Shown in pieces: positions 42,821 to 60,600 of a stretch of 64,000 nt of DNA; the first letter of the stretch is position 1, and each line of letters begins with the position of its first letter. Position numbers and translations under genes: made by a program. This DNA is from Rubritalea profundi (GTDB lineage Bacteria; Verrucomicrobiota; Verrucomicrobiia; Verrucomicrobiales; Akkermansiaceae): assembly GCF_002954445.1 (NCBI RefSeq), contig NZ_MQWA01000001.1, positions 3,741,780 to 3,805,779 on the forward strand, in the 5' to 3' direction. The notes under the pieces are model-generated. The model was not told the DNA's origin and did not search any database. It was given only the letters and a program-made list of their open reading frames with translations.

Positions 42821-45800
42821 ATGAATATACGTGTCCTAGCTGCCTTCACCGCGTTACTGAGTAGCAGCGCTCTTGCCGATTTTCAGAGCCCACTGGATGA
42901 GCAATGGGTGCTGTCTAAAGATAAGGCAATTTTCCTAAAAACCCTAACACCTGGGACTGATAATCATTTCTTCTACCACGCGCTGCACCAGCAGCAATCA
43001 GGGCAGACGGAATTGTTCCGCAAGACGATGGCGGATTGGCGAGGTCTTCACAAAAGTGGCGCTATCCCAGGGCCGAGGGCCGCCCAGTTACTCAATCGCC
43101 AGACATTGCTCGATTATGAAGCTGGTGTGACGGGTGCTAATGAAGCGCTCAGGAAAGTTTTTGGGTTGTCGCAGCCTAAGGCAAGAACGGATCTAGCGGA
43201 GCGCAAAGAGCTGCCGAGCATTCTGGATGCCGAAGCCATTTCTAACGATGCCTTCGTAAAAGAATTAGGCCTAATCACGGAGATCAGGCGCATCAAGTCA
43301 GCATCGAAACGGCAGTTGTTACGCCTCGCTGCCGAGGATAAAAAGCGGCCCAAGCTAAGCCGCGACATTTTCCTGCGCAGGATAGACCACGCTGGACTAC
43401 CTAACATAGAGAAGTTGATACTTGCCAACTTCAAAGAGTCGCGACCATTACCGATCTCTCAGATTTCCTGCGCAAAGAATCTCTCGCGATCACAACTCCA
43501 GAGCTTAGCCGATATCGAACCAGACCTACTCAATGATCGATCCTTTGTCGGGCTAATCATCCAGTCCATGCAACCGGAAGACAGGAGCATCTTCAAGCGT
43601 AACCCCGAAAAACATCTGGCGTGGTTGGTGAAGCTAGATGGGTTTACCCGCACTCTTTCTCCATCACATAATTCGCTCAAGGCGCATGTCCTCTACCACA
43701 GATTACGTATTGCCTCGGAGGTGGATCAATTTCCTAGCAAGACCTTCGTCCGCTACCTCAATCTACCGCGCCGAAAGACCCCTATCTGGAGTAAGCATGC
43801 TGTTGACACGAAGCACCCAGGTGTCTCATTCAACCAATCGTTCTACAAGTACACTGAATGCGCTCCCATCGGTAACGAGTTAAAATTAATTGAAAAATTC
43901 CTAGATAATAATCTCGTGGAAGCTGCTCAGCAGGAGTTGTTAGCAAAGTATTTTGACGCACAATACTTCAAGGAAAGAACCTCGCGGTCTCAACTTTTAG
44001 CGGGTGTGGATAGCGACAAATTAGATCATCCCCTCAGTGCCACAGACTATGAAGTTTTGAGGGATCTAAAGGAACTCAGTATAGCGGATTCGACCAGCCG
44101 TCAGTGGAGTCATGACTCGCTGGTGAAGTTGAATGTAGACCTGAAGAATGTGGATAATCTCACGGTGTCTATCTACGCTCTCGATAGCCTTCGATACACT
44201 AAAGAGACAGGCAAGGAAATCGGCCATGAGTTAGACCTCAGCAGTATGATTCCTAACACATCACGCACGATAGAGACAAAGGAATCCCCTTTCCTTCGCC
44301 ACCGTAAAGTCATCGAGCTGCCAGAGTTGAGTAATGTGGGAAGTTGGATGGTAGAGCTTCATGGCAATGGTCAGAGAGTCACGGCCTTGATTCACAAGGG
44401 TGAAATCCACCATTGCGTGCGCGACACTGGTGACGGTCAAGAGGTCTTTGTGAGCGATTTCGAGGGACACCCATTGAAGGGCGTGCAGGTCTATGTGGGA
44501 GGAAAGCAATGGGTCAGCGACGACGATGGACTGGTGCAAATGCCATACTCCCCTAACGTATCTCGGACAAACATGCGCTTGCACCTTGCCAGTGAAGATC
44601 GCGAGAATGGCATCACCCGCGTGGTCAAGCTCAACCGAAGAGGTGCAGCCACAAGTCTCGAGATCGCTAGCATTTCTCATCCTGAGCAATGGCTGGCAGA
44701 CCAAAAAGCGACCTTCTACTACAAGCCGAGTTTTCTGGTGAACGGAAAGTCGGGCTCGCTCGATAGAATAGAGAGCAGTCAGGTAATCTTGAGCGCTACT
44801 CTAAGAGACGGCCAGGAGATTGAGCTGGTTAGAAAATCTATCAAACTATCTTCTAACGATTTCCTCCCACTCAGCTTCACAGTTCCGCAGAGTCTCTTTC
44901 AACTAAAGATAGAGGTCACCAGCACGCTCAAGCCGATTGCTGGACGCGAGACCCCCAAGGTGAGCGCGACTAAGCAACTTGTGGTGACACCTGCGCCAGA
45001 CGCGAATACCCTAGTCTACCCTTACTTTTATCAGGAAGGTGAAAAATGGTTTATTCAATGCCTTGGTCGCAATGGTGAACCGTGGCCCAATTTCACAGTC
45101 TCCGCGCAGTTCAACCATCTAGATTTCAATCAAGAAATCCGCCACGAGCTCAAAACTGACGATAATGGAGTCATCGACTTGGGCGAACTGAGAGACATCA
45201 CCCATGTCAGTGTTTTGACGTATATAAAATCTCCAGCAGCAAAGCTGGATCTCACTGTTCAAGAAGACAATTTAGCATTGGCTGACTACTACCCAGCAGG
45301 TGAAGAAATCGAGTGCTTTCTCAACCACGTCTCCCCTCTCAATCCGTATGATTACAGCCTCCGTGGCGCAGGATCTGACAAGAAAGATTATTTCTCAGCA
45401 CTTTCCCTCAAGGGTAACAAGCTCAGTTGCGGGCAGCTTGCTGCGGGAAAATACATTCTAAAAACTCCACATAGTCCGGCACAGCAGTTTGAAATTCTAG
45501 ACGCTAACACACATGGGCAATGGCTCACGCTTCAAGGTCAAGCAGTGGAACTGCCACCAAAAAAGGCTGCTCAAATTAGTAAGGTCACACACTCCGAGGG
45601 TAAGCTGAAAATAAAACTCAGCCATTCGGGCCCATACACACGGATCCACCTTATCGCTTCACAATTCACTGAAACGACGAATCCCTATCAACCAGCACTG
45701 CCGAAGACACTTGGCCAGGCGCATTTCGGATTCGGGTTTATCCCTAGCATTTATTCGAATGGTGGCACGCTCTCTGGTGAGCATCAATATATCCTCAGCC

Positions 45801-48800
45801 GTCGACTCGCGGGAAACAAACTAGGAGTCATGCTGGAACGCCCAGCTTGGCATCTACAACCGTGGAAAACTGAAGCATCTGAGTCCTACCTTTCAGAGTT
45901 GGGGGAAGGTGGGGCTGGTGGTCGTGGTCGCTTTGGATCCTTGTCACAGAAAAAATCTAGCAAGCGAGGCTCAGCTGCGAAGAACGAGGAATTTGGCTCT
46001 AGCCCAATCGAATTTCTTGAGAATCAGGCCATCGTGCTAGCGAACCTCACTGCTGATAAGGAAGGTAACTACGAACTCAATCTCGACAAACTGGCTGGTC
46101 ATATGCGAGTGGATGTCATCGTCACTCAGGGGGGAAATGTCGACAGCATGCGTATTGCCCTGCCCGAGACTGAGCTCAAAACTATCGATCTCCGCCTGGC
46201 TAAATCGTTTGACAGCTCCAAGCAATTCCGTGCTGGTGAGACCAATGCCGTGCTCAAGGCTGGCGCCTCGGCAAGTATTGAAAATGTGGTGGATGCAGAC
46301 TGGAAAGCCTACAGCACGCTCGAAGACGCCTATAGCTATTTCTTCACCCACATCAAAGACGAGCATCACTCCAAAGCATTACGCGCTATTGCTCCTATCC
46401 TCCACTGGCCAAAGTTAGATCAAGAAGATCGACTCGAGTTGCTAGAAAATGCGGGCAGCCATGAACTCCACCTCTTCATCAAGAACCGTGACCCAGAGTG
46501 GTTCCAGGCGCACGTGGCTCCGATGTTAGAGAATAAGCGTCGCAAGCAATTCTTCGATCACTACCTGCTCGACCACGATCTCTCATCCTACGCCACTGCT
46601 GGCAAATTCCACACGCTCAACACTATGGAACAAGCCTTGTTAGCCCAGAGTCTAAAGAGCGCCCCAATAGCAAAAAAACTGGAGTCCGACTACCTTCGTG
46701 TGCGTCCCGACACAGAGGCGGAGACCGAGCTCTTCACCTCCTTGCTAAAACAAGGATTCGATAGCGAACTGGATGAGGTCAAGCGAAGCGTGGCGATCGA
46801 TTCAAACGCTTTAAAGATAAGAAGAAAATTACAGAACATCATTATTCCTGTGATCGACTTTCAAGACGTCACAGTGGATCAAGCCATAGACATTCTACGC
46901 CAACGCACTAGAGAACTCGATTCCATACAGCTCGACCCTGCGAAAAAAGGAGTCAACTTTGTCGTCCGTACTCCTACTGTAATGGGCTCCGGTATTGATG
47001 ATGAAGCTGGAGAGTTTGGTGGTGCGGCTCAACCTGGCTCAAAAACCATCAGTTCACTGCAGCTGCGTAATGTGCCACTCGAAGTTGTGGTCAAACAGAT
47101 CTGTGATGTAACGCAACTACGTTACAAGGTAGAGGAACACGCCGTCATTCTCCTCCCAGCGACAGACTTTGATGACTCAGAACTCTACACTCGAAGCTTC
47201 AATGTGCCAGCAGACTTCATGGATTTGATCAGCACTGGAGGAGGTGGTGGCGGGGCTTCTGATGATCCATTCGCGGATGACGATCATGGTTCATCTGGAA
47301 TACGCGCGACTCCTCCAGTAAAATATTTACTGGAGGAGTCCGGTGTTGTGTTCCCTGAGGGTTCCACAGCTTCATTTAACCGACGCACAGGAGTACTAAC
47401 AGTCAGAAATACAGCTAATAACCTGGATATCATGGAGCAACTCACTTCATCTTTGGACGGAGCTTCATCTAATGACGGACTACTCAGCGCTCTTGGCTCA
47501 AAGGCACTTCCTCAACAGCCTAACGAGAGCCTTGAATTACCTGAAAGCGCGCTTGCGAAACGTACATCAGCTTCAAATTTTTCAGATAACTCTTCGCTAG
47601 CATTTTCCGGAGCTGCCTCTGATGATTCTGGCGGAGATAGTGGACTAGCTGCATTGGTCGACCCGTCCGCCCTACCCCACGAAACCAAAGCCTACGCTGA
47701 GAGTAATTACTACAAACGCCAAGCGAGCGACGGAGCACTAACTATCGCGCCGAATGCCTTCTGGGTGGATGTGGCGAAGTGGGATGGGAAATCCGAGTTT
47801 CTTTCACCCCGTTTTGCTGAATGCCGCGACAACGCCCATGAATCCTTGATTGCTCTAGCCTTGCTAGACTTGCCATTTGAGGCGGTGAAACCAGAGATAA
47901 CACTGGATAAATCCAACATGCGCATCACGGCAAAGCAGGCGATGTTACTCTACTACCGCGATCTCAAATCTACAAAAAAAGTGGATCTGAACAAAGGGCT
48001 GCTTAGTTCCCTACGTTATTTCCGTAGTGGCGACATTCTCAGAGAGGACGCCGACGGCAAAGTCTCGGAAAACGCCATCACTGGAAAATTCCAAATCCAC
48101 ACTCCCTACGAGGCGCACCTGACACTGACCAATCCAACAGGCGTGGCGCGTGAGGTGGATATTCTTCGCCAAATCCCAGCCGGAGCCATCCGCCTAGACA
48201 CATCCGATACCATCAGCGCCCTACGCACCACTATCGCGCCGCATGGCAGTTGGCAGCATGTCGTCCAGTTCTACTTCCCTAGTGCTGGAAGCTGGCAGCA
48301 CTATTCTCCACGGATTCATGAGGGTGCTACTTTACTGAGTCAGATGGAGGATAAAACACTGGAGGTGGCTGACACCTTGCCGGAGGAGTTTGCAAACAGC
48401 TGGGCGCAGTTGGTGGTGGAGGGTTCCAATGAGGAAATTCTCAACGCTTTAAAATCACGTCCATTGCAGTTGATAGAGATCGATTGGCTCGACGAGCACA
48501 TGGCGGAAAAGGCCTTCTACACGCCTGCTATCCAAACGCTGCAAGAGCGCATGGTCGACACCTCCGTCTTTGCTACCCAGGCAATCGAGCACCGAGATAT
48601 ACCGACCCTCACGCATTTCCTCGGCGACTCGGTGCATTGCACCAACCAATTTGGCTATTACTTTAAGAGCGAGTCGATAGACACCACTCCCTACTCCATG
48701 CGTCAGTTCGAAGACATCGAATGGCGACCGTTGATCAATGAGAGAAGTTTCCCACTGGTTACAGAAAATAGAGTCAGCAATGAGAAAGTCTGGAGTGACT

Positions 48801-49741
48801 ACCTCAGGCTACTCACCCAACTGGCATGGAAAACTGAACTAGCTAGTGAGGAGAAACTCACGCTCGCCTACCACCTCTTCCTACACGATCGTAACGACGA
48901 AGCCATCGCGCTCATAGCGGATTGCAAGCGCGATGAGACTGGGGCCAAGATGCAGTTCGATTACCTAACAAGCTACATCCATTTCCTCAAAGGTGAGCCA
49001 GCCAAAGCGAAAGAAATCGCACAAATCTGGCTCAAGTCAGCCAAGGCTCCGTGGCTCCAGCGTTTCTCAGATATTGCGACGCAGGCGGACCAGATTTCCA
49101 ATGCTGCCTTGCTCAAACCGCATGAGGTAAACCAACATGCAGATCGCTTCTGGTCAGCCTCATTGAGTAAAGGTAACACGCTAAGAATCGAGCATAAACA
49201 AATGGAAGACGTTGTGGTACAGATCTACCCAGTCGACCTCGAATTTCTCTTTTCTAACGCACCCTTCCTCGGCTCTAACGATGCCAGCTACAAAGCTCTC
49301 CGCCCCTTACAGGAATTTGTAGTAAAGCTGGATGAAGAAAAATCTACCACTGAATTCAAGCTCCCTGAGTCCTACCAATCTGGTAACCGCTTGTTAGTGA
49401 TCGATGATGGTGAGAAGGAATGGCTCCACCCACTGCAGAGCACTAAGCTGAGCACCACGATCAATAGTGCCAGCGGGATGCTCCAGTCCCTCTCCCAAGG
49501 AAAACCGATGCCGCGCTGCTACGTCAAGGTCTACGCTCTAACCAAAGACGGTTCTGTAAACTTCTTTAAAGACGGCCACACCGACCTGCGTGGGATGTTT
49601 GACTACCGTAGCCACAACGTCCACGCACCAGCAGACGTTCAGAGCTTTGCGCTGTTCATCAGCCACCCAGAGCTCGGCAGTATTACTAAGATCATCGGGG
49701 ACGCTAGACCGAACGAGAATTTACATCCTCCTCTAGATTAG
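42821..49741 (+). CDS. Giant macroglobulin-like secreted protein with secretin-type N domain
   Basis: The 2306-residue product has a signal peptide (residues 1-19, ending SSALA). A helical N-terminal part (about 20-400) is followed by MG-type beta domains (about 400-1120), including GHPLKGVQVYVGG with VSDDDGLVQMPY. A Gly-rich hinge (about 1026-1060) leads into LTADKEGNYELNLDKLAG, matching the macroglobulin segment after a bait region. Where a thioester domain is expected there is none. Residues about 1339-1546 instead resemble a secretin/STN-type N domain (IIPVIDFQDVTVDQAIDILR, LQLRNVPLEVVVKQICD), with a Gly/Asp-rich linker. A long tail with MG-like and TPR-like parts ends the protein. It is encoded 61 bases before an ABC ATPase in a co-directional run with a thioester macroglobulin and pbpC, suggesting an envelope role. 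Confidence 0.75.
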   Translation: MNIRVLAAFTALLSSSALADFQSPLDEQWVLSKDKAIFLKTLTPGTDNHFFYHALHQQQSGQTELFRKTMADWRGLHKSGAIPGPRAAQLLNRQTLLDYEAGVTGANEALRKVFGLSQPKARTDLAERKELPSILDAEAISNDAFVKELGLITEIRRIKSASKRQLLRLAAEDKKRPKLSRDIFLRRIDHAGLPNIEKLILANFKESRPLPISQISCAKNLSRSQLQSLADIEPDLLNDRSFVGLIIQSMQPEDRSIFKRNPEKHLAWLVKLDGFTRTLSPSHNSLKAHVLYHRLRIASEVDQFPSKTFVRYLNLPRRKTPIWSKHAVDTKHPGVSFNQSFYKYTECAPIGNELKLIEKFLDNNLVEAAQQELLAKYFDAQYFKERTSRSQLLAGVDSDKLDHPLSATDYEVLRDLKELSIADSTSRQWSHDSLVKLNVDLKNVDNLTVSIYALDSLRYTKETGKEIGHELDLSSMIPNTSRTIETKESPFLRHRKVIELPELSNVGSWMVELHGNGQRVTALIHKGEIHHCVRDTGDGQEVFVSDFEGHPLKGVQVYVGGKQWVSDDDGLVQMPYSPNVSRTNMRLHLASEDRENGITRVVKLNRRGAATSLEIASISHPEQWLADQKATFYYKPSFLVNGKSGSLDRIESSQVILSATLRDGQEIELVRKSIKLSSNDFLPLSFTVPQSLFQLKIEVTSTLKPIAGRETPKVSATKQLVVTPAPDANTLVYPYFYQEGEKWFIQCLGRNGEPWPNFTVSAQFNHLDFNQEIRHELKTDDNGVIDLGELRDITHVSVLTYIKSPAAKLDLTVQEDNLALADYYPAGEEIECFLNHVSPLNPYDYSLRGAGSDKKDYFSALSLKGNKLSCGQLAAGKYILKTPHSPAQQFEILDANTHGQWLTLQGQAVELPPKKAAQISKVTHSEGKLKIKLSHSGPYTRIHLIASQFTETTNPYQPALPKTLGQAHFGFGFIPSIYSNGGTLSGEHQYILSRRLAGNKLGVMLERPAWHLQPWKTEASESYLSELGEGGAGGRGRFGSLSQKKSSKRGSAAKNEEFGSSPIEFLENQAIVLANLTADKEGNYELNLDKLAGHMRVDVIVTQGGNVDSMRIALPETELKTIDLRLAKSFDSSKQFRAGETNAVLKAGASASIENVVDADWKAYSTLEDAYSYFFTHIKDEHHSKALRAIAPILHWPKLDQEDRLELLENAGSHELHLFIKNRDPEWFQAHVAPMLENKRRKQFFDHYLLDHDLSSYATAGKFHTLNTMEQALLAQSLKSAPIAKKLESDYLRVRPDTEAETELFTSLLKQGFDSELDEVKRSVAIDSNALKIRRKLQNIIIPVIDFQDVTVDQAIDILRQRTRELDSIQLDPAKKGVNFVVRTPTVMGSGIDDEAGEFGGAAQPGSKTISSLQLRNVPLEVVVKQICDVTQLRYKVEEHAVILLPATDFDDSELYTRSFNVPADFMDLISTGGGGGGASDDPFADDDHGSSGIRATPPVKYLLEESGVVFPEGSTASFNRRTGVLTVRNTANNLDIMEQLTSSLDGASSNDGLLSALGSKALPQQPNESLELPESALAKRTSASNFSDNSSLAFSGAASDDSGGDSGLAALVDPSALPHETKAYAESNYYKRQASDGALTIAPNAFWVDVAKWDGKSEFLSPRFAECRDNAHESLIALALLDLPFEAVKPEITLDKSNMRITAKQAMLLYYRDLKSTKKVDLNKGLLSSLRYFRSGDILREDADGKVSENAITGKFQIHTPYEAHLTLTNPTGVAREVDILRQIPAGAIRLDTSDTISALRTTIAPHGSWQHVVQFYFPSAGSWQHYSPRIHEGATLLSQMEDKTLEVADTLPEEFANSWAQLVVEGSNEEILNALKSRPLQLIEIDWLDEHMAEKAFYTPAIQTLQERMVDTSVFATQAIEHRDIPTLTHFLGDSVHCTNQFGYYFKSESIDTTPYSMRQFEDIEWRPLINERSFPLVTENRVSNEKVWSDYLRLLTQLAWKTELASEEKLTLAYHLFLHDRNDEAIALIADCKRDETGAKMQFDYLTSYIHFLKGEPAKAKEIAQIWLKSAKAPWLQRFSDIATQADQISNAALLKPHEVNQHADRFWSASLSKGNTLRIEHKQMEDVVVQIYPVDLEFLFSNAPFLGSNDASYKALRPLQEFVVKLDEEKSTTEFKLPESYQSGNRLLVIDDGEKEWLHPLQSTKLSTTINSASGMLQSLSQGKPMPRCYVKVYALTKDGSVNFFKDGHTDLRGMFDYRSHNVHAPADVQSFALFISHPELGSITKIIGDARPNENLHPPLD

Positions 49742-49802
49742 TGAGCCATTGCCTTATTTTGTCCTAACACTCCCCATCAAATCATGGTAGAACTTACTTT
49801 CT

Positions 49803-50795
49803 ATGCCTGCCACATCGGAAAGATCAATGGAGCAAACGGGGCCCCCGCTGATGGAGCCCCCCGCCATCTCCATACAGGATCTTAGGATCGACTACGGTTC
49901 ACACCTCGCGGTGGACAACATGAACCTCGATATACCCAAGGGGATCATCTATGGATTAGTCGGTCCAAATGGTGCGGGAAAGACCTCCACCTTCAAAGCT
50001 CTCGCCTCCCTTCTCAAGCCCACGATTGGTAAAATATTCATCGATGGCCACGACATCGTCACCCATCAGAGACTCGCGCAGTCCAACATTGGCTACATGC
50101 CTGACATGGCTCCCGTGGCATCCGATCTGAAAGTCTGGGAATTCCTCGATATGTTTGCTGGCGCACATGGGCTGAGCGGGAGTGAAAAATCGACGAGAAT
50201 CGATGAATGCATCGCGATGGTAAACCTCCACTCAGAGTACCATGCCATGTGTAACTCACTTTCTCGCGGCATGATGCAAAGGCTCGTGTTAGCCAAGACC
50301 ATGCTCCATCGTCCACGTCTACTCATCCTCGATGAACCAGCGAGTGGGATGGACATCAAATCAAGGGTCGGTCTGCGTCAGATACTCAGAAACCTTTGTA
50401 AAGAAGGCTCCACCGTACTTATCAGCTCGCACATTCTGCCCGAACTCACTGAAATGTGTGACATGCTGGGGATTCTACACCGAGGGAAATTACTCGACTC
50501 TGGCAGCGTCCATGGAGTGCTTCACAGAATGACTGGATTGCTCCCCGAAATTCAAATCCGTCTAGCAGTCCCGCCAGGTATGCACTGGAAAGAGTGGCTC
50601 GCTGAGCAAGATTTCGTCTCCAACATCATGGGCCAAGATGTCAAAAAATACAGCTTCCACTATGAAGGTGAAGATGACGACCTAGCCGAACTTCTACAGA
50701 AAATGGTGGCAGCCGGCTACCTCGTTTGCCGCGTTTCTGAACGCAAACGAAGCCTAGAAGAAATCCTCCTCGATTTAGAATACGACGGTCACTAA
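49803..50795 (+). CDS. ABC transporter ATP-binding protein
   Basis: This 330-residue cytoplasmic ATPase energises an ABC transporter. It has Walker A GPNGAGKTSTFKAL, the signature-like NSLSRGMMQRLVLAKTM, Walker B RLLILDEPASGMD and the H-loop in ISSHILPE. The additional C-terminal 80 residues are typical of ABC-2/CcmA-type ATPases. It starts 61 bases after the giant protein and ends 20 bases before the permease, so these form an exporter pair. The substrate is unknown, but its position between two macroglobulin-like genes hints at envelope work. The first 20 residues are proline-rich, and an internal start (residue 9 or 17) is possible. Confidence 0.9.
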   Translation: MPATSERSMEQTGPPLMEPPAISIQDLRIDYGSHLAVDNMNLDIPKGIIYGLVGPNGAGKTSTFKALASLLKPTIGKIFIDGHDIVTHQRLAQSNIGYMPDMAPVASDLKVWEFLDMFAGAHGLSGSEKSTRIDECIAMVNLHSEYHAMCNSLSRGMMQRLVLAKTMLHRPRLLILDEPASGMDIKSRVGLRQILRNLCKEGSTVLISSHILPELTEMCDMLGILHRGKLLDSGSVHGVLHRMTGLLPEIQIRLAVPPGMHWKEWLAEQDFVSNIMGQDVKKYSFHYEGEDDDLAELLQKMVAAGYLVCRVSERKRSLEEILLDLEYDGH

Positions 50796-50815
50796 CCACC
50801 TTCGACCCACTAATC

Positions 50816-52480
50816 ATGTCCGACAAAGTACAAGCTGAAAGACTCAAGGCCCTGCCTCAATGTTGGGAACTATGGAGGAATCCTATTTTCCACCGCTATC
50901 GACGCTCGCGCTTACGTCTTAGTTCGTTGATCACGGGAGTTTTACTCTATGGAGGCACCTCCCTGTTATTCTACCTCATGGCACTAGGCTTCACCGTCAC
51001 TCAGACGGACTTACCCTTTGAGCAAACTGCTGTCTATCCGTTCGGATTCTTGGTTTTACTTCAGATCTTCATCCTCAACTTCGTAGGAACTGGGGAAGTC
51101 GCAGCAGGCATGGCTAGAGAATCTGTAGATGAAGTCCTTACTTACCAGCGACTTACTCCTCTCGGTCCCGCCACCAAAATCATAGGTTACCTCTTTGGGC
51201 TTCCGGTGAGACAATTCTATCACTTCATCCTCACCCTCCCCGTCACTGTCATCATCATAGTCACGGGTCAAATCCCAGCCGAGATATGGATTCCCATTTA
51301 TGCTGTGCTCTTCACCTCTACCTTTATGTTCTACCTGTTAGCCATGTCGGTGGGATTCATTATGGGAAAACGCTTTTCCGCGCTTATCTCCCAGGGCTTG
51401 GTTGCTCTGCTTTATTTCGCTCTCCCCCAGCTCTCAAATTTCGGATTCATCATCTTCGAATACTTTACGATTCGCCCCGCACTTTTCGCAGCTGCTAATA
51501 AAATGCTGCCTAAGATAAAGATGTTTGAGCATGACCAATACGCGTTATTCTATAATTGGGAGATCTCTCACACCATCTATAGTATCGTGCTGCAATGTCT
51601 GATTGGCTGGGTATTCTACAGCCTCATGCTGCGCCGCTGGCGGCTAGAAAGCTCTCACCTCCTCAGTAAGGTTCAATGTGTGGCAACCGTCATCATCCTT
51701 CACGTCATCATCCTCGGAGGAGTTTGGGCGAACACCTCTAACGGATCCATGCTTGATGTAAAAATCCAGGCGAGGACACCAGAGATGGCAGTCCTCCAAC
51801 AAACGATATCTGAAAATGTAGAGCTCATTGCAGCAACCGTTCTCTCGCTCTACGGGCTGATCGGTTTCTCCTTCGCTATACTACTTCAATACATCTACAC
51901 CCCAGATAAATTCCGCTACCTCGCGGGGCTGCGTGAGCGCAAAAACCAAGCTCGAACTCCCTACGCTGTCCTATCGGACTCAGCCAGCGGCATCCCCACT
52001 AGCGTACTCATCACAGTTATTACCACGGTAGCCTGGCTGGTATACAGCGAGCACCTTTCGAGGTCACCTGAAGTCGCTGAATTCATAGCTGGAGAATCAT
52101 GGGCACCTGTAGATTACATGCTCATCGCCGTCTCTGTCACGACTCTGCTCGCTCACGGGTTTTCACTCGAGTATCTCGGCAAAAAACTCACCGCCACGAT
52201 TGCCTGCTTCACGTGGGTCATCCCCTTAGCTGTCGCGCTTTTGCTTTCTACATGGAGTTTTGGAGAAAAAGCATCGGGCTTTATTTATGGCTTCTCACCT
52301 TTATCAATGAATTTTTCTCCAGGCTACATCATGGCGAGTGTTCATAACGCCGAAGACCCCACCCTCTTCATCTATGGGTGTAAGCTCGGCATCCTGTTCT
52401 ACTTGGTTATATGCCTCTATTGCCTCAGTAGGATCATCCTTCGTCACAAGCACTACATGCTACTTCGTGATAGTGTCTAA
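50816..52480 (+). CDS. ABC transporter permease (ABC-2-like), polytopic
   Basis: The 554-residue membrane protein has about twelve hydrophobic segments in two groups: about 40-240 and 290-550. The first set includes ITGVLLYGGTSLLFYLMALG and VYPFGFLVLLQIFILNFVGT, and a conserved soluble stretch EVAAGMARESVDEVLTYQRL with TPLGPATKIIGYLFG. This arrangement matches the membrane part of ABC exporters whose ATPase is encoded just upstream. The middle soluble region (about 300-360) is non-conserved. It is followed 100 bases later by the thioester macroglobulin gene. The transported molecule cannot be deduced. Confidence 0.8.
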   Translation: MSDKVQAERLKALPQCWELWRNPIFHRYRRSRLRLSSLITGVLLYGGTSLLFYLMALGFTVTQTDLPFEQTAVYPFGFLVLLQIFILNFVGTGEVAAGMARESVDEVLTYQRLTPLGPATKIIGYLFGLPVRQFYHFILTLPVTVIIIVTGQIPAEIWIPIYAVLFTSTFMFYLLAMSVGFIMGKRFSALISQGLVALLYFALPQLSNFGFIIFEYFTIRPALFAAANKMLPKIKMFEHDQYALFYNWEISHTIYSIVLQCLIGWVFYSLMLRRWRLESSHLLSKVQCVATVIILHVIILGGVWANTSNGSMLDVKIQARTPEMAVLQQTISENVELIAATVLSLYGLIGFSFAILLQYIYTPDKFRYLAGLRERKNQARTPYAVLSDSASGIPTSVLITVITTVAWLVYSEHLSRSPEVAEFIAGESWAPVDYMLIAVSVTTLLAHGFSLEYLGKKLTATIACFTWVIPLAVALLLSTWSFGEKASGFIYGFSPLSMNFSPGYIMASVHNAEDPTLFIYGCKLGILFYLVICLYCLSRIILRHKHYMLLRDSV

Positions 52481-52580
52481 CCCACCCCAAAAAAACTAAT
52501 TGCAGCTTTTTTAACATTTAGTGTAATTTATTTGAACTCCAGCCACGTATCTAAAGTTTAGAACAAACCATCAAAGTGCC

Positions 52581-55500
52581 ATGAAAACCCTCCTCCTAGC
52601 CACCCTGTTATCAGCACCGATCGTCTGGGCGCAGCCGATCCTAAATCTCAGTTCCACTGAGCTCCTACCAGAAACCCGCTACGAACTCATCTTTGAGCAA
52701 TCGGTGGTAAGTAAGGATCAACTCAACCAACCACAAGCGAATGCTTACCTAAAAATAAGTCCTCAGCTAAAAGGTGAAATCGTCTGGACCCAGCGGAACA
52801 TCGCCCAGTTTCTCCCCAGCGAGGCTCCAAAATTAGGCACAAACTACACCTTTAGTACCACGCGTGGAATCAACTACGAAAATGGCAAGGCCATTCCTAC
52901 GGTGAAGCTTAAGACCACTTCCTCACCTGACTTTAAAACCACCTACCACAGGCGTTACAGTAAGAAGAACAACCGGATGCCCTATAGCTATTTGCGTTTC
53001 AATGACGACATCAAGCAAAGCAAGGTCCAAACCAAATTTTACTACATCAACAAAGAAGGCACAGCGACACCTGCTGCAGTAAGACAAGCTGAGTGGGCTG
53101 ACCTAGAAAGCACCTACTACATAAAACCTAGTTGGCAGCAAAGGTTTAAAAATATTCTCAATAAACGTGGCGGCATCGATGTTGAAAGCACTACTGAGTG
53201 GGCTAAAAATAAATCCATTTCTAACGGACTCATAATCACTCCAAAATACCCACTTTCAATCGGCGAAGATTGGGCCTTGGTGATGAAGAAAAACACACCC
53301 AACGCATCAGCCTCAGACAAAACAAAAGCTGATGGGAACTACCACATCTGGGACATTGATCCATTCGATATTGACAAAATCATTCCAGCTGTGATCGCAG
53401 ATAAAGCGCGCTCGATATATGTCGAATTTAGTACCGACTTGCCTGAAGAGTTAGACCTCGAACTTCTTAAAGAAGTTGTGCATGTTCACCCGATTCCAAA
53501 GAACCTATCATTTAAGCGCCGCTACAATGACACCCTCCAAATAACTGGTGATTTCCAGCAGCGAAATGACTGGAAAGTGACTGTCGACAAAGAATTTGAA
53601 GCCCGCAATGGATTGATGCTCGGCACCCCACTGACCAAAGATATAAAATTCCACTATGTCCCCTCTGGAGTCGCCATGGCTAGTTACGATTCCGCCCAAC
53701 TGGCAAAAGGCGACAGATCATTCAAAATCAATACAGTCAACATGCGTGAAGTGCGGGTGCAGATAAAATCACTTCACAACGAGCAAGCCATCCGAGCAAC
53801 TCAAGGGTACCGCCACTACTCAGGCAATGGTCCCAACTACAACGACATCAAGGATACTGCTCCGCTGCCCTTCGAACTCATCAGTGGAACTACAGTCTAC
53901 GACGAAGTCATCACACTCGATAACGCGGTAGACACATCTAGAGACATCCACCTCTCGTGGAATAAGATTCTTCCTAATAAATTACGTAATGCCACGTTGT
54001 TCATTTCAGTCACGGGACAGCCCAAGGCTAGGCTCGACAGGAAAGCTTCACTCAAGCGCCGTGTCCAGTCGCTCGTTCAACTCACCGACATCGGGCTAGC
54101 GTGGAAACTCAATGGCGCGAAAGCCTGGGTTTATGCTTACTCGTTAGAAACTGGAAAACCATTGAGTGGAGTTGAACTCAGCATGTATGGAGAAGACGCC
54201 AGCAAGCTCCATTCAGCTACGACCGATGCACAAGGCCTCGCTGTCGCTGATTGTTCGAAAGGTGATCGTCATCTCATGGCTCGGACTAGTGATGATCAGT
54301 TTTCTGTGACATTTGACAATTCACTCTCGACTGTATCGATGTGGCGGTTCCCTGTCGATTTCACCTGGAACTCTAGTGACGACTGGCAACACAAAGTCAT
54401 GCTCTTCACCGACCGAAATCTTTATCGCCCTGGCGCGACTGTGCGGCTCAAAGGAATTGTGCGAGAGTACAATGACAATGCGATCCGTAAGAGTGGCCAG
54501 ACCTCTATGCGTCTTTCAATCAGAGATCCCAGGAACAAAGAGATCGCCACATCCGACCTCAGCATCAGCAAAGCTGGTGGATTTGACCATAGCTTCACTC
54601 TGCCCGTTGGACTCGTCGGCCAGTTCACTCTGCGCTGCGCACTCACCGGTGAAGGAATCGAAGGCGACAACGCCTTCAGCCATCGATTCCAAGTCCAAGA
54701 TTTCCGCCGCAATGCCTTTGAACTCAAACCCAACCTCCCAGCTCCAGCCAACGCGGATAAGGATGTCCAGTTTGATATCGAAGCCAAATACTACCAAGGC
54801 ACACCGGTGGCCGAGGGCACACTCCATTGGTATGCGTCCTCATCGAAAATAGGGTTCTACCCAGAAAAGTTTCGCGACTTCCAATTTGGTGACCACCGCG
54901 ACTACGACCCCTACTATTGGAGCCACTACTTTGGCTACGGTGACGCAAATAGGTTTCGCGACACCCAACAATCCAATGGCACAACTACCCTCACTAGTGA
55001 AGGAACAGCATCGATCACAGCTGCTATTCCCCAGATCGAATTCCCTGCACCTCAGCACATCAGCATCACTGGTGAAGTCACCGACTCACGCGACCAAACG
55101 CTTTCTTGCGTCCGCAGCACCACCTATTTCCCCTCTGACTATTTCATCGGCATACAGAGAAGTGACGCCCTAATTCGCGTCGGCAACCAGAAAAAACTCA
55201 ACATCGTCGCAGTCAACACCAAGGGTGAATACCTCGATGAAACTCAGACTATCGAGATAGAAATCGAACGTGAATACTACGAATCAGTTAAGATTTTAGC
55301 TAAGGATGGAACCACCCGGACACACAACGAAAAACGCAGCGAAAAAATCAGCACCGAGTCCTTTCAGTTGATTGCGGGAAAACCTAGCCCGTATGCGTTT
55401 AGCCCAGAGAAATCGGGCCGCTACATTTTCACACTCAATGGCACTGACGGCCAAGGCCATACTACCCGCACCGCGTCCAGATACTACGTCTACGGTAGTC

Positions 55501-58283
55501 GCGAGTACCCATGGGCCACCGAGGATGGACTTCGGATCAAACTCGTGAGCGAACAAAAGAACTACAAGCCAGGCGATACTGCCCGCATCCTAGTCATGAC
55601 ACCGATCGAGGGCACGGCACTGGTAACGGTGGAGCGCCAAGGAGTCATCGAAAGCTTCCGTAGAGAGCTCAAAGCTGACAAGCCAGTGCTAGAGTTCCCT
55701 ATCAGCAAGGACTTTGCACCAAACGCATTCGTCTCAGTCCTGATCATTCGCGGCTCAGATGTTAGTCCACGGAAATTTAAACAACCCGCGCTCAAGTTAG
55801 GCTTCTGTGAAATCAAAGTCACAGACCGCGGCAAAGAGCTCGCAGTAAGCATCGACAAATTGAGCTCCAGTGTGCTTCCCGGTCGGGAAATCACCCTCAC
55901 TGGCATGGTCAAAGACCATAACGGCAAACCCTGTAAGGATGCCGAAATCGTTCTTTTCGCTGAAGATGAAGGAACCCTCGCCGTGATGGGATTTACCACT
56001 CCTGACCCACTCAAGTTCTTCCACTCGCCACTCCGACTCTCGCTCAGAACTGGTGTATCACTCGGCTACATTATCGATGACAATCCAGACCACCGCTACA
56101 TGGGAAATAAAGGATTCACCATTGGCGGCGGCGGAGAGGTCCTAGCTGCGATGATGGATATGGATGCCATCAAGAATCGGGCAAACTTCGATCCCTGTGC
56201 CGCCTGGTTCCCGACGGTGAGCAGCAACTCTGAAGGTGCATTCTCAGCGACATTTAAAACCCCCGACACACTCACACGCTACCGCATCATCGCGGTCGCC
56301 CACCGCGCTGGGGACCAATTTGGCTCCAGTGAATCCTCGTTCATGGTCAACAAGGACATCATGTTAGAACCAAAGCCACCACGCTTTGCCCATGAAGGAG
56401 ATTCGTTAGAAACCAAAGTCCTCATAGAAAACACTAGCAACTACGCCGGATTGTGGGATGTCACACTCAAGACTGATAGCCTTTGCTCCATCCCCGAGGG
56501 AATAAACAACACACTAACAAAAACAGTTCAGCTGAAACCAAACAGCTCCGCCACATTGAGTTTCCCCGTCAGCTTCATCAACACTGGTGAAACGACTTGG
56601 ACATGGTCGGCAAGCCCGCGCACCATAGAAAACCAGCCACTCACCATCGCGCTTAAAAAACAACTCAGCGACGGCATAGAGAACACCTTCAACGTAGCCT
56701 ACCCAAGGCCACTGCTCCACCAGGCGGACTTTGCCCGACTCGAGGACAATACCCCAACAAACCTCGTGGCTAACATGACTCCTATGATCATGAATGGCCG
56801 AGGCCACATGGATTTAGAGTTCTCTAACTCACTGCTTCTCGAAGCCGGTGGCGCCTCTGACTACTTGCTCAAATATCCCTATGGATGCGTAGAGCAAACA
56901 ACCTCCAGCCTGATTCCATGGTTTGCTGTGCGTGATCTCAAAGGAATCGTTCCAGGCTTCTCTGAGAAGTCCGCTGGTCAAGTGGCTGAGGCCATTCAGA
57001 AAGGCGTCGATCGGCTCCTAAGCATGCAGACATCTGATGGCGGCCTCGCCTACTGGCCAGGCGGTGAGCGCTCCGAGGACTGGGCCAGCGTCTACGGCGG
57101 CATGGGCCTACTCCTAGCTCTAGAGCAAGGAGCCCATGCTCCAGAAGACTCTATAGAAGCTCTCTCTAGCTACCTCCAATCTATTGCTAGAAATCCAGTC
57201 AAGAATGGCAACTATCGTTCTTGGAGAAATGACACACGCGCTCGTGCACTCTATGTCCTCGCCCTTGCTGGAGCTGCCGATAAGGCGACACAGAATAAGC
57301 TCTACGACGAGCGCCACACCCTCAGCACCTCAGCCCGCAGCTTCCTCGCACTAGCCATCCATCACAGTGGCGGCAATGCCAAATTAGCCAACGAACTGAT
57401 CAGCAATGCTGGAACCTCCCCAGATAAAGGCCACTGGATGCGCTACCGTAGTGATATCCCAGTCCAGCTGCTCGCATGGTCCACCATCGCACCACGAGAT
57501 ATCCAGACTGAGAAAATGATGCAAAACTTACTCACCCAGAGAAACCCTCAGGGCCACTGGCGCACCACTTGGGTCAATGGTTGGGCGATGCACTCAATGG
57601 CTGCCTACGCCCGCTTCGTCGAGTCCGGCCGCCCTGATAGCAACATTACCCTGCAGACCAGCAGCGGCAAAAAAACCATCAAACTCACCAAAGACAAACC
57701 ACTCCAGCACCTCCGCTTACCGCTCGATGAGGCGCAAACTCTCATCGCGTCGTGTGAAGGCAAAGCCTACGCCCGCATCTTAGCTGCATCAAAACCTGAA
57801 GTCGCTCCATCTGGCCCAACATCTAACGATGGCATCACCATCACTCGTCGCTACGAGCGGATCAACGACAAAGGCGAAGCTAGCCCGCTGGACCAACCGC
57901 AAGTCGGAGATCTAATTCAAGTGACACTGACAGTAGGTATCCCGGCCAATGCCATGTACGTATCTATCGATGACCCATTGCCCAGCATCCTAGAATCGGT
58001 CAACGACGACTTCGCTTCGCAATCCAGCGTCCACAGCAAAAAGCTCAAACGCAACTACCGGATTTCACGCAGTGAGTTTAGAAATGAACGTAGTCTATTC
58101 TTCCTTAATCGTTCATGGGGAACGAAGAAGCAAGAAATCCAGTACCTCGCAAGAGTGACCGCAGCTGGAACCGTACACGCGCCGCCGGCAAAGGCGGAAT
58201 CGATGTACAATCCATCACAGTATGGACTCTCCGAAGCCCACACCTTCACAACGGTTAACAAAGCTGCCATGGCTGGCGAGTAG
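52581..58283 (+). CDS. Bacterial alpha-2-macroglobulin with thioester
   Basis: The 1900-residue protein has a type I signal peptide (MKTLLLATLLSAPIVWAQ; no lipobox cysteine seen, unlike E. coli YfhM). MG domains follow, including LYRPGATVRLKG (MG2-type, about residue 613). A Gly-rich bait-like segment (IGGGGEVLAAMM, about 1181) leads to AWFPTVSSNSEGAF and the A2M core (FKTPDTLTRYRIIAVAHRAG). The thioester motif is YPYGCVEQTTS with Cys1436, and the helical thioester domain follows (LLSMQTSDGGLAYWPGG). Bacterial macroglobulins trap proteases by cleavage-induced collapse and covalent capture. A plausible promoter (TTGCAG, 18 bases, TAATTT) lies at 52500-52529. pbpC follows after 13 bases. Confidence 0.92.
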   Translation: MKTLLLATLLSAPIVWAQPILNLSSTELLPETRYELIFEQSVVSKDQLNQPQANAYLKISPQLKGEIVWTQRNIAQFLPSEAPKLGTNYTFSTTRGINYENGKAIPTVKLKTTSSPDFKTTYHRRYSKKNNRMPYSYLRFNDDIKQSKVQTKFYYINKEGTATPAAVRQAEWADLESTYYIKPSWQQRFKNILNKRGGIDVESTTEWAKNKSISNGLIITPKYPLSIGEDWALVMKKNTPNASASDKTKADGNYHIWDIDPFDIDKIIPAVIADKARSIYVEFSTDLPEELDLELLKEVVHVHPIPKNLSFKRRYNDTLQITGDFQQRNDWKVTVDKEFEARNGLMLGTPLTKDIKFHYVPSGVAMASYDSAQLAKGDRSFKINTVNMREVRVQIKSLHNEQAIRATQGYRHYSGNGPNYNDIKDTAPLPFELISGTTVYDEVITLDNAVDTSRDIHLSWNKILPNKLRNATLFISVTGQPKARLDRKASLKRRVQSLVQLTDIGLAWKLNGAKAWVYAYSLETGKPLSGVELSMYGEDASKLHSATTDAQGLAVADCSKGDRHLMARTSDDQFSVTFDNSLSTVSMWRFPVDFTWNSSDDWQHKVMLFTDRNLYRPGATVRLKGIVREYNDNAIRKSGQTSMRLSIRDPRNKEIATSDLSISKAGGFDHSFTLPVGLVGQFTLRCALTGEGIEGDNAFSHRFQVQDFRRNAFELKPNLPAPANADKDVQFDIEAKYYQGTPVAEGTLHWYASSSKIGFYPEKFRDFQFGDHRDYDPYYWSHYFGYGDANRFRDTQQSNGTTTLTSEGTASITAAIPQIEFPAPQHISITGEVTDSRDQTLSCVRSTTYFPSDYFIGIQRSDALIRVGNQKKLNIVAVNTKGEYLDETQTIEIEIEREYYESVKILAKDGTTRTHNEKRSEKISTESFQLIAGKPSPYAFSPEKSGRYIFTLNGTDGQGHTTRTASRYYVYGSREYPWATEDGLRIKLVSEQKNYKPGDTARILVMTPIEGTALVTVERQGVIESFRRELKADKPVLEFPISKDFAPNAFVSVLIIRGSDVSPRKFKQPALKLGFCEIKVTDRGKELAVSIDKLSSSVLPGREITLTGMVKDHNGKPCKDAEIVLFAEDEGTLAVMGFTTPDPLKFFHSPLRLSLRTGVSLGYIIDDNPDHRYMGNKGFTIGGGGEVLAAMMDMDAIKNRANFDPCAAWFPTVSSNSEGAFSATFKTPDTLTRYRIIAVAHRAGDQFGSSESSFMVNKDIMLEPKPPRFAHEGDSLETKVLIENTSNYAGLWDVTLKTDSLCSIPEGINNTLTKTVQLKPNSSATLSFPVSFINTGETTWTWSASPRTIENQPLTIALKKQLSDGIENTFNVAYPRPLLHQADFARLEDNTPTNLVANMTPMIMNGRGHMDLEFSNSLLLEAGGASDYLLKYPYGCVEQTTSSLIPWFAVRDLKGIVPGFSEKSAGQVAEAIQKGVDRLLSMQTSDGGLAYWPGGERSEDWASVYGGMGLLLALEQGAHAPEDSIEALSSYLQSIARNPVKNGNYRSWRNDTRARALYVLALAGAADKATQNKLYDERHTLSTSARSFLALAIHHSGGNAKLANELISNAGTSPDKGHWMRYRSDIPVQLLAWSTIAPRDIQTEKMMQNLLTQRNPQGHWRTTWVNGWAMHSMAAYARFVESGRPDSNITLQTSSGKKTIKLTKDKPLQHLRLPLDEAQTLIASCEGKAYARILAASKPEVAPSGPTSNDGITITRRYERINDKGEASPLDQPQVGDLIQVTLTVGIPANAMYVSIDDPLPSILESVNDDFASQSSVHSKKLKRNYRISRSEFRNERSLFFLNRSWGTKKQEIQYLARVTAAGTVHAPPAKAESMYNPSQYGLSEAHTFTTVNKAAMAGE

Positions 58284-58296
58284 CACTCTAATATCC

Positions 58297-60600
58297 ATGA
58301 TTCTCCTTACCCAAGCATTCTTGGATAGAAACTCTCTAGCACGTTATCGTGTGGCGAGAATTTCTATCAGAATCATGGCTGTGCTCTCAGCACTCTGCCT
58401 CATGCTTTGGTATCTAGTTCCTTTAGCGTTCCCTCTCAATGAAGATGCTCTCGCAGGCCCTCCACCCTCAGTACTCATCCTCGATAACCAAGGGAACCCG
58501 CTCCACCATCAAGCTCGCAAGGACTACTACCTCAGCGAGTCGACTCCACTCGATGGCATCCCTCAATCGCTGATAGATGCCACATTAGCAGCCGAAGATA
58601 AACGTTTTCACGACCACGGAGGTGTGGATATTCTCGCTAACTTACGCGCTATAAAAGACTCAATAGAAGCTGAGAGGTTAGTAAGTGGAGCATCAACCGT
58701 GACCCAGCAAACCATCAAACTCACCACCGGTTCCCCCGCCAGAACCTTTAAAACAAAAATCATAGAAGCTCTCAGCGCTCGTCATTTAGAAATCAGCTAC
58801 ACCAAGCAAGAAATTCTTGCCTGCTACCTTAACCACCTCGACTACGGCAATCTCACTCAAGGGCCACGACAGGCATCACTGCACTATTTCGGCAAAGAAC
58901 TCAGCGAGCTCTCACTCGCTCAAACAGCTCTGCTCGCAGGCCTACCACAGGCTCCCTCACGCCACAACCCCAGAAGGAATCCGAATAATGCGAAGAAGCG
59001 GCGCGACTGGGTGTTAGAACGAATGCAGATCACTTGCGACTACCCGAGCACCCAAATCCAGCGCGCGATCAACGAGCCAATCCAACTCATACCCAGGAGA
59101 TCACACCAACTGCAAACTCAACTAGCCCAACTTGCAGTCGCCCACCGCACACCGGGTTCACGCACCATTCGCACCAGCATCGACAGCAAGCTTCAAGCCA
59201 CTGTAGAACGCACCCTAGCTGAAGAAGTGGCCAAGCTCCATCACCAGCATGTCAACAATGGCGCGGTCGTGGTCATCGACAACCACACGCGGCAGGTCTC
59301 AGCTCTCGTCGGTACCGCTGATTTTTCTGCTGAGAGTGGCCAGATCAATGCAGCGCTCACTCCACGTTCTCCGGGATCGGTGCTCAAGCCCTTCACCTAC
59401 CTGTTAGCAATTGAAAAACTACACTACTCCCCGGCCACCATTCTAGCCGATGTTCCCACTCAGTATGCTGGAATCCGAGGCCCAGAGGCTTTTGTCAACT
59501 ACGACCGCAAACACCGTGGTCCCGTTAGCCTCCATTCAGCACTTGGAAACTCACTCAATGTGCCCGCAGTGCGAACTCTAAATGCCCTAGGCGGCCCACG
59601 TGCACTCCACAGCTTCCTCCAACAGTTAGGCTTCAGCACCCTCACAGAAAAACCTAGCCACTACGGGCTCGGACTGACACTCGGCAGCGGTCCAGTCACC
59701 TTGATCGATGTGACCAACGGCTTTGCGAGCATAGCCTGCCAAGGAAGCCACACCGACTACATCCTTTTCCCTGATGACCAAACCACCATGCCCAAACGCG
59801 TCTGCTCAGCTGAATCAGCTTACCTCATAGCCAGCATCCTCACCGACAACCTCGCTCGATCAGCCACTTTTGGAAATAATTCCCAGCTCAGACTCCCCTT
59901 TCCCTGCGCTGTGAAGACTGGTACTTCATCTGACTTTCGGGACAATTTCTGCGTCGGATTCACCACTGATTTCACAGTTGGCGTCTGGGTGGGGAATCTA
60001 TCTAACCAACCTATGAAAGGCACCTCAGGAGTCACTGGAGCTGGCCCAGTTTTCCACCAAGTCATGCTGGATCTGCATAAAAACCGACCAGCCCATTGGC
60101 TGAAGAAACCCGCCAATGTGCTAGCTATCCAAATAGACCCACACACAGGCAAGCGGCTTGCTCCATCCCATCCACGCTTCCCTCTAAGCATCCACACCTT
60201 CACCAACAAAGACCGCATTCCTAAATGGGCAAACCACCTAGACTATTCTCAGAATGGCCAAGTCTACCTCAATGATCGCTTCACCCATTGGTTAAGTGAA
60301 ACTCCACAGCCTCCCTTCATTGCAGATCAAACGCGCCAGCATGACGTACCACTAAGAGTCCTCTCACCAGCCCGCGATGCCACCTACCTCTTAGACCCCG
60401 ACCTACCAGACAGAGGTGCCTATCTATCACTCATTTCTAACGACCCGGAATCTACCGAATGGTCCAGTACTAGTCTAGAAATCATAGACCACCACAAGTC
60501 CCCCACCCTCATCCTCACCGAAGGAGACCACCAAGTCACCGCCCACCACCGAGCCACTGGAAAATCCAGCACCATCCGATTCTCAGTTAGAGAACTCTAA
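58297..60600 (+). CDS. pbpC: Penicillin-binding protein 1C
   Basis: PBP1C is a bifunctional inner-membrane enzyme that polymerises and cross-links peptidoglycan. The 767-residue protein has a TM helix (about 22-45). The glycosyltransferase domain carries the catalytic Glu100 in LAAEDKRFHDHGGVD and the GASTVTQQTIKL and LARHLEI-like SARHLEISY regions. The transpeptidase domain has SPGSVLKPFTY (Ser361), SLN in GNSLNVPAV and KTGTS (Lys540). The C-terminal 90 residues match the extra BiPBP-type beta domain. I start at the ATG at 58297, after the macroglobulin stop at 58283; an earlier in-frame ATG overlaps that gene. The macroglobulin-pbpC pair is conserved in many bacteria. Confidence 0.94.
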   Translation: MILLTQAFLDRNSLARYRVARISIRIMAVLSALCLMLWYLVPLAFPLNEDALAGPPPSVLILDNQGNPLHHQARKDYYLSESTPLDGIPQSLIDATLAAEDKRFHDHGGVDILANLRAIKDSIEAERLVSGASTVTQQTIKLTTGSPARTFKTKIIEALSARHLEISYTKQEILACYLNHLDYGNLTQGPRQASLHYFGKELSELSLAQTALLAGLPQAPSRHNPRRNPNNAKKRRDWVLERMQITCDYPSTQIQRAINEPIQLIPRRSHQLQTQLAQLAVAHRTPGSRTIRTSIDSKLQATVERTLAEEVAKLHHQHVNNGAVVVIDNHTRQVSALVGTADFSAESGQINAALTPRSPGSVLKPFTYLLAIEKLHYSPATILADVPTQYAGIRGPEAFVNYDRKHRGPVSLHSALGNSLNVPAVRTLNALGGPRALHSFLQQLGFSTLTEKPSHYGLGLTLGSGPVTLIDVTNGFASIACQGSHTDYILFPDDQTTMPKRVCSAESAYLIASILTDNLARSATFGNNSQLRLPFPCAVKTGTSSDFRDNFCVGFTTDFTVGVWVGNLSNQPMKGTSGVTGAGPVFHQVMLDLHKNRPAHWLKKPANVLAIQIDPHTGKRLAPSHPRFPLSIHTFTNKDRIPKWANHLDYSQNGQVYLNDRFTHWLSETPQPPFIADQTRQHDVPLRVLSPARDATYLLDPDLPDRGAYLSLISNDPESTEWSSTSLEIIDHHKSPTLILTEGDHQVTAHHRATGKSSTIRFSVREL

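Follow-up and report, generated by a model that had tools for sequence, protein, structure and literature searches.

A macroglobulin-like giant protein of Rubritalea profundi and its relatives with a recurrently re-copied pilus secretin module

Introduction

Several described systems lie close to the locus treated here. In Escherichia coli, the gene of a type I, thioester-bearing alpha-2-macroglobulin (A2M), yfhM, is adjacent to pbpC. Type II A2Ms (MagD/YfaS, mag operon) have an A2M-type fold without the CxEQ thioester motif and are probably periplasmic. Plant nucleotide-binding leucine-rich repeat (NLR) receptors with integrated decoys have a copy of a likely target built into a defence protein. 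We analysed a stretch of 64,000 nucleotides from the Verrucomicrobiota member Rubritalea profundi (the window), with a focus on five genes, P1 to P5, all on the plus strand between positions 42821 and 60600. P1 encodes a giant protein with a graft whose source is the type IV pilus secretin PilQ/Amuc_1098, namely its periplasmic N-domains. The backbone of P1 is inherited vertically. Its secretin module, in contrast, has been replaced time and again by fresh copies from the secretin, probably through gene conversion.

Compared with the described systems, P1 resembles type II A2Ms in its predicted A2M-type fold, the lack of CxEQ and a probable periplasmic location. It differs from them by the absence of Pfam A2M matches, by the graft and by a second macroglobulin (MG)-like end. 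P4 and P5 are similar to the E. coli yfhM-pbpC pair in domains, CxEQ thioester and pbpC adjacency, but P4 has no lipobox Cys, and the unrelated cluster of P1 and an ABC transporter lies directly upstream. Like the plant integrated decoys, P1 holds the copy of a likely target inside a defence-type protein. Here, however, a gene of the same cell is the source from which recombination renews the copy, and a defence role is only proposed for P1.

Results

P1 (42821 to 49741) is 2306 amino acids (aa) long and starts with a signal-like sequence. The graft is located at 46772 to 47476 (aa ~1318-1552) and corresponds to profile positions 241-458 of 805 in the secretin family NF042912 (Amuc_1098). The match, at aa 1321-1548 with an E-value of 5.6e-63, had been overlooked in a preliminary description of this locus. 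It reaches 213 bits against a cut-off of 750 and covers positions 241-458 only, so the graft fails the full secretin-family test, being below the cut-off and without a channel domain. P1 is thus a recipient and not a secretin. The structural model of the graft has the fold of secretin N-domains (3gr5, Z 9.8; PilQ 4av2, Z 9.5), with a confidence of ~90 by predicted local distance difference test (pLDDT) over most of its length, and is followed by a disordered linker.

The graft was found in 18 of the 80 P1-like loci with organism names, namely those closest to the window P1, including Luteolibacter and Haloferula strains, and not in the remaining 62, more distant homologues. Of the family P1 loci that were scored, those most like the one in the window, each has the graft, apart from a single locus truncated by the end of its contig. 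In several genera, P1 holds this N-domain unit at one and the same position, and its borders hardly vary (about 241-458). P1 orthologues of other families have a shorter linker of mostly low complexity at this site. The occurrence in many independent assemblies rules out the graft being an assembly artefact.

The origin of the graft was traced by comparisons with secretins, in sets with one genome per species and many metagenome bins. In a tree of the module, the P1 copies pair with the type-a secretin of the same genome, and its well-supported branches require the label to switch between P1 and secretin 15 times or more. Separate clades of P1 and secretin modules appeared in 0% of the bootstrap trees. 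The own secretin was the best match of the graft in 19 of 21 genomes in the first set, and in 10 of 13 in a second set fetched later, where in the other three it came second or third behind relatives. Overall, it ranked first among all secretins in 29 of the 34 genomes. The mean identity of the graft was 0.671 to the own secretin and 0.505 to the secretins of other genomes, a value not reached in any of 20000 permutations.

As a control served the type-b secretin, which these genomes also carry and which is a full paralogue. Its mean identity was 0.429 to own and 0.413 to other secretins, with scattered ranks of the own one, in contrast to 0.681 and 0.536 for P1 in the same 20 genomes. The own-other difference was therefore 0.145 for P1 and 0.016 for the control. 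The near-absent own-genome signal, together with the module tree, also leads to the rejection of the type-b secretin as donor.

The main groups agree between the tree of the P1 backbone and that of the secretin C-terminal part, so that the graft module alone behaves oddly. The own-genome best match, combined with a backbone that follows the secretin tree, points to recurrent secretin-to-P1 copying. Within the module tree, the secretin branches are mostly shorter than the P1 branches, which suggests the direction from secretin to P1. On the DNA level, P1 was closer to the own secretin gene than to the nearest secretin of another species in 12 of 32 genomes over the best 150-nt segment. The clearest case is Haloferula luteola, where 150 nt of P1 match the secretin gene of the same genome at 92% identity, against 73% for that of any other species.

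The type-a secretin gene of the R. profundi genome itself (contig C1, 2060236-2062799; L103:7237-9800) has a frameshift, resulting in two overlapping open reading frames (ORFs), and the pieces of both frames were joined for the comparisons. Either a mistake in the assembly or a true break of the gene could explain the split.

P1 is not the only recipient. A protein of anti-sigma-like type that has VWA and YfbK_C domains, encoded beside an extracytoplasmic function (ECF) sigma-like gene in the same bacteria and unrelated to P1, also carries pieces of the own pilus secretin. Here, unlike in P1, the pieces come mainly from the TPR part, with short pieces of the channel domain, and are shuffled, their order and number varying between species. 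The own secretin was the best match in 11 of 13 cases (0 of 20000 permutations), and the tree of these pieces mixes the labels with 12 changes for 13 sequences. One piece (genome G064) has 88% protein and 82% DNA identity to the own secretin. Such patchwork proteins are present in the loci L209-L224, for example at L216:2117-5617 in G064. For other donors, the VWA protein of G173 (L211) gave only weak matches, at aa 157-245, to a multicopy family of ~450 aa found in several genomes, which is possibly a second donor to this protein.

Apart from the graft, P1 has two parts with MG-like predicted folds. In the first half (44048 to 46174, aa ~410-1118), tandem MG-like domains resemble the E. coli/Salmonella A2M from NIE-MG1 towards MG7. 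In the second half (47990 to 49702, aa ~1724-2294) lies an MG7/TED-like stretch resembling complement C3/C4, followed by an NIE-MG1-like end domain. The models were made with AlphaFold2 from 38 homologues, with a mean pLDDT of 81 for aa 1-1140 and 74 for aa 1130-2306. The first half aligned with the A2Ms 4rtd (Z 12.4, 273 residues, root-mean-square deviation (rmsd) 7.8) and 4u48 (Z 12.0, 452 residues, rmsd 13.6), and the second half with C4 (5jpn, Z 9.8, 105 residues, rmsd 2.7) and 4zjh (Z 12.0, 174 residues, rmsd 3.8).

On the sequence level, P1 had no macroglobulin match in Pfam at E-values up to 0.5, nor any in NCBIfam, and a profile search of the PDB with 15 P1 sequences gave no match at E<=1. 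The fold claim thus rests on predicted structures. The CxEQ motif was looked for as C.EQ and was absent from P1 in all 34 genomes, for some of which the P1 sequence is incomplete. By its predicted fold P1 is A2M-like, but it is not a type I A2M. The preliminary description of P1 as a giant macroglobulin-like protein therefore holds for the predicted fold, without the backing of a Pfam family. Homologues of P1 occur as far away as Planctomycetota and Lentisphaerae, and in a small number of further groups; a first scan of the genome contigs with the P1 sequence alone as query had given no match.

Downstream of P1 follow P2 (49803 to 50795, 330 aa), an ABC transporter ATPase of the DrrA/GldA-like ABC-2 type, and P3 (50816 to 52480, 554 aa), its polytopic permease partner, which belongs to no Pfam family. 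P4 (52581 to 58283, 1900 aa) is a type I bacterial A2M with a signal peptide and a CVEQ thioester motif at 56886 to 56897 (aa 1436-1439). P5 ends at 60600, is 792 aa long and encodes the penicillin-binding protein 1C (PBP1C), with 505 bits for TIGR02073 against a cut-off of 494.2. Its start is at 58222, overlapping P4, or at an in-frame ATG at 58297, leaving a gap of 13 bases after P4. With the latter start, the ORF coordinates agree with the gaps of 61, 20, 100 and 13 bases between five co-directional genes given earlier.

P4 passes as a type I A2M by its domain set, CxEQ motif and pbpC neighbor. The MG2, A2M_BRD, A2M, bMG3 and bMG10 domains are over their cut-offs, and only TED is below (18.0 vs 22). 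Its nearest solved structures are those of the E. coli/Salmonella YfhM A2M, and it is the sole match to the A2M domain (PF00207) in the R. profundi genome. Of 94 genomes analysed from the order, 31 or more have an A2M gene within 2 kb of a PBP1C gene. These domains, the motif and the P5 score confirm that P4 and P5 are a known pair of the yfhM-pbpC type.

The conservation of the locus was followed in these 94 genomes and in 260 genomes of the family, including the window genome and its congener G104. P1-like proteins are widespread in the order sample, and relatives of P3 occur in 21 of the 94 genomes. None of 20 neighborhoods of P1 orthologues outside the genus had a relative of P3 or of P4 next to P1. 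The P2-P3 pair is conserved in many relatives, where it is located among other, unrelated genes. P1 and P3 are side by side only in the window genome and in G104, and never together in the remaining 258 genomes of the family. In G104, P1, P2 and P3 are adjacent (L100), and the A2M-pbpC pair (L392) is ~75 kb away. Another congener, G098, has the A2M-pbpC pair and no match to a C-terminal P1 query. The five genes were together in no other genome searched, and the linkage of P1, P2 and P3 recurred once, in G104. The locus is therefore a juxtaposition of two units, a lineage-specific P1-ABC cluster and an ancient type I A2M-PBP1C pair. As a separate observation, outside the genus the P2-P3 pair often adjoins a protein of ~310 aa starting with a single hydrophobic helix (L108, L109, L113, L115).

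Discussion

The presence of secretin pieces in both a trap-like protein, P1, and an envelope-regulator-type VWA protein suggests a look-alike that is maintained. In the periplasm, P1 would meet whatever meets the PilQ N-domains. The graft might serve for docking of P1 at the pilus port, in which case P1 would meet the periplasmic partners of PilQ, or as bait, in which case agents attacking PilQ would meet the graft in the trap-like P1. Re-copying would keep the look-alike matched as PilQ changes, and the same logic could apply to the anti-sigma/VWA protein with its shuffled PilQ pieces. Judged from sequence, a graft kept as a maintained PilQ mimic has a little less than an even chance of being correct, with docking and bait about equally probable. 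The explanation as a whole, of two units and a repeatedly re-copied graft kept as a PilQ look-alike, is in our view as well placed to be right as wrong.

A more specific version would see an integrated-decoy system in bacteria, in which two surveillance-type proteins, the P1 trap and the anti-sigma/VWA protein as a sensor coupled to an ECF sigma factor, hold up-to-date mimics, maintained by recombination, of the secretin as a port that is plentiful in the envelope. An attacker or binder of the secretin would hit the mimic, upon which the trap would spring or the sigma factor fire, and the mimics would be kept current by gene conversion, with the active secretin gene as donor. We regard this version as unlikely.

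The main rival is that the graft results from neutral capture, if the secretin gene, being highly expressed, often acts as donor in recombination and linkers tolerate functionless in-frame pieces. Once inside, the homology of the graft would let gene conversion recur. The recipient sites are indeed linker-like, as seen in the low-confidence flank of the graft and the low-complexity linker of orthologues without it, and the pieces in the VWA proteins are shuffled and differ in number between species. The abundance of the donor counts here too, as it does for the look-alike: in Akkermansia muciniphila, no outer-membrane protein is more abundant than the member of this secretin family (PMC4960237). 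Capture without function explains less well why one N-domain unit with near-constant borders and a confident fold is found at one P1 site across several genera, and why the type-b secretin, itself a homologue, has neither acted as donor nor been homogenised. We consider neutral capture a serious possibility, if a tentative one.

The preliminary description had proposed an expanded defence system, with the ABC pair and P1 as functional parts added to the A2M-PBP1C unit. The genes are co-directional with short gaps, no terminator-like site was seen in the gap between P3 and P4, and P1-P2-P3 is retained in G104, which would fit a common unit. The proposal was to be dropped if the ABC pair or the giant protein adjoined unrelated genes in most relatives, and this is what the neighborhoods show. 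With the five-gene set in no other genome searched, the two units of G104 75 kb apart and the A2M-pbpC pair of G098 without a P1 match, an expanded system is improbable, and a conserved P1-ABC-A2M-PBP1C system is rejected by synteny.

Some results weigh against the main explanation of a re-copied and maintained look-alike, or limit its reach. The ranks and permutations were uncorrected for phylogeny, and the type-b control also has a small own-genome bias, reached by 18 of 20000 permutations. On the DNA level, the identity of P1 to the own secretin exceeded that to the nearest secretin of another species in only 4 of the 32 genomes overall, and in 12 over the best 150-nt segment. Such a low number of winning tracts suggests that most events are old or that the copies diverge fast, and very recent conversion as a general rule is rejected. 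In the VWA proteins, the secretin pieces lie in linkers and are short and out of order, a pattern that neutral capture would also produce. Nevertheless, we hold the anatomy of the locus and the recurrent copying, taken together, with high confidence. A single ancient fusion followed by vertical descent only, with the own-genome match as an artefact of composition or tree error, could draw on the bias of the control and on the noisy trees of short modules, but it predicts separate P1 and secretin clades, which none of the bootstrap trees contain, and the own-other difference in the same genomes is large for P1 and minute for the control, making it very improbable.

In titles and abstracts of the open-access literature, we found no account of secretin gene conversion, of a Verrucomicrobial macroglobulin with a secretin, of bacterial integrated decoys or of ECF/VWA anti-sigma factors that describes such copying. 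Parts of a surface machine are recurrently copied into unrelated envelope proteins from the current allele of the cell, a process invisible in gene tables, where the recipients appear as an unnamed giant and a VWA protein. It also means that a self domain can be added to proteins with an A2M fold. Should selection act on the match to the own secretin, this would point toward something in Verrucomicrobiota that partners or attacks the pilus secretin, and the graft would be a direct means of finding it. If the match is neutral, these genomes document ectopic gene conversion in bacteria as a clean record left by nature.

Modules like the secretin N-domain were seen in further proteins. A BlaR1-type M56 membrane peptidase (L226:3150-4916, within L226:1504-4916) has secretin N-domain-like (STN) modules towards its C-terminal end, as do proteins of similar size in L218, L225 and L217. 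In G254, a protein of 1069 aa (L215:3577-6786) carries four secretin N-domain modules in tandem.

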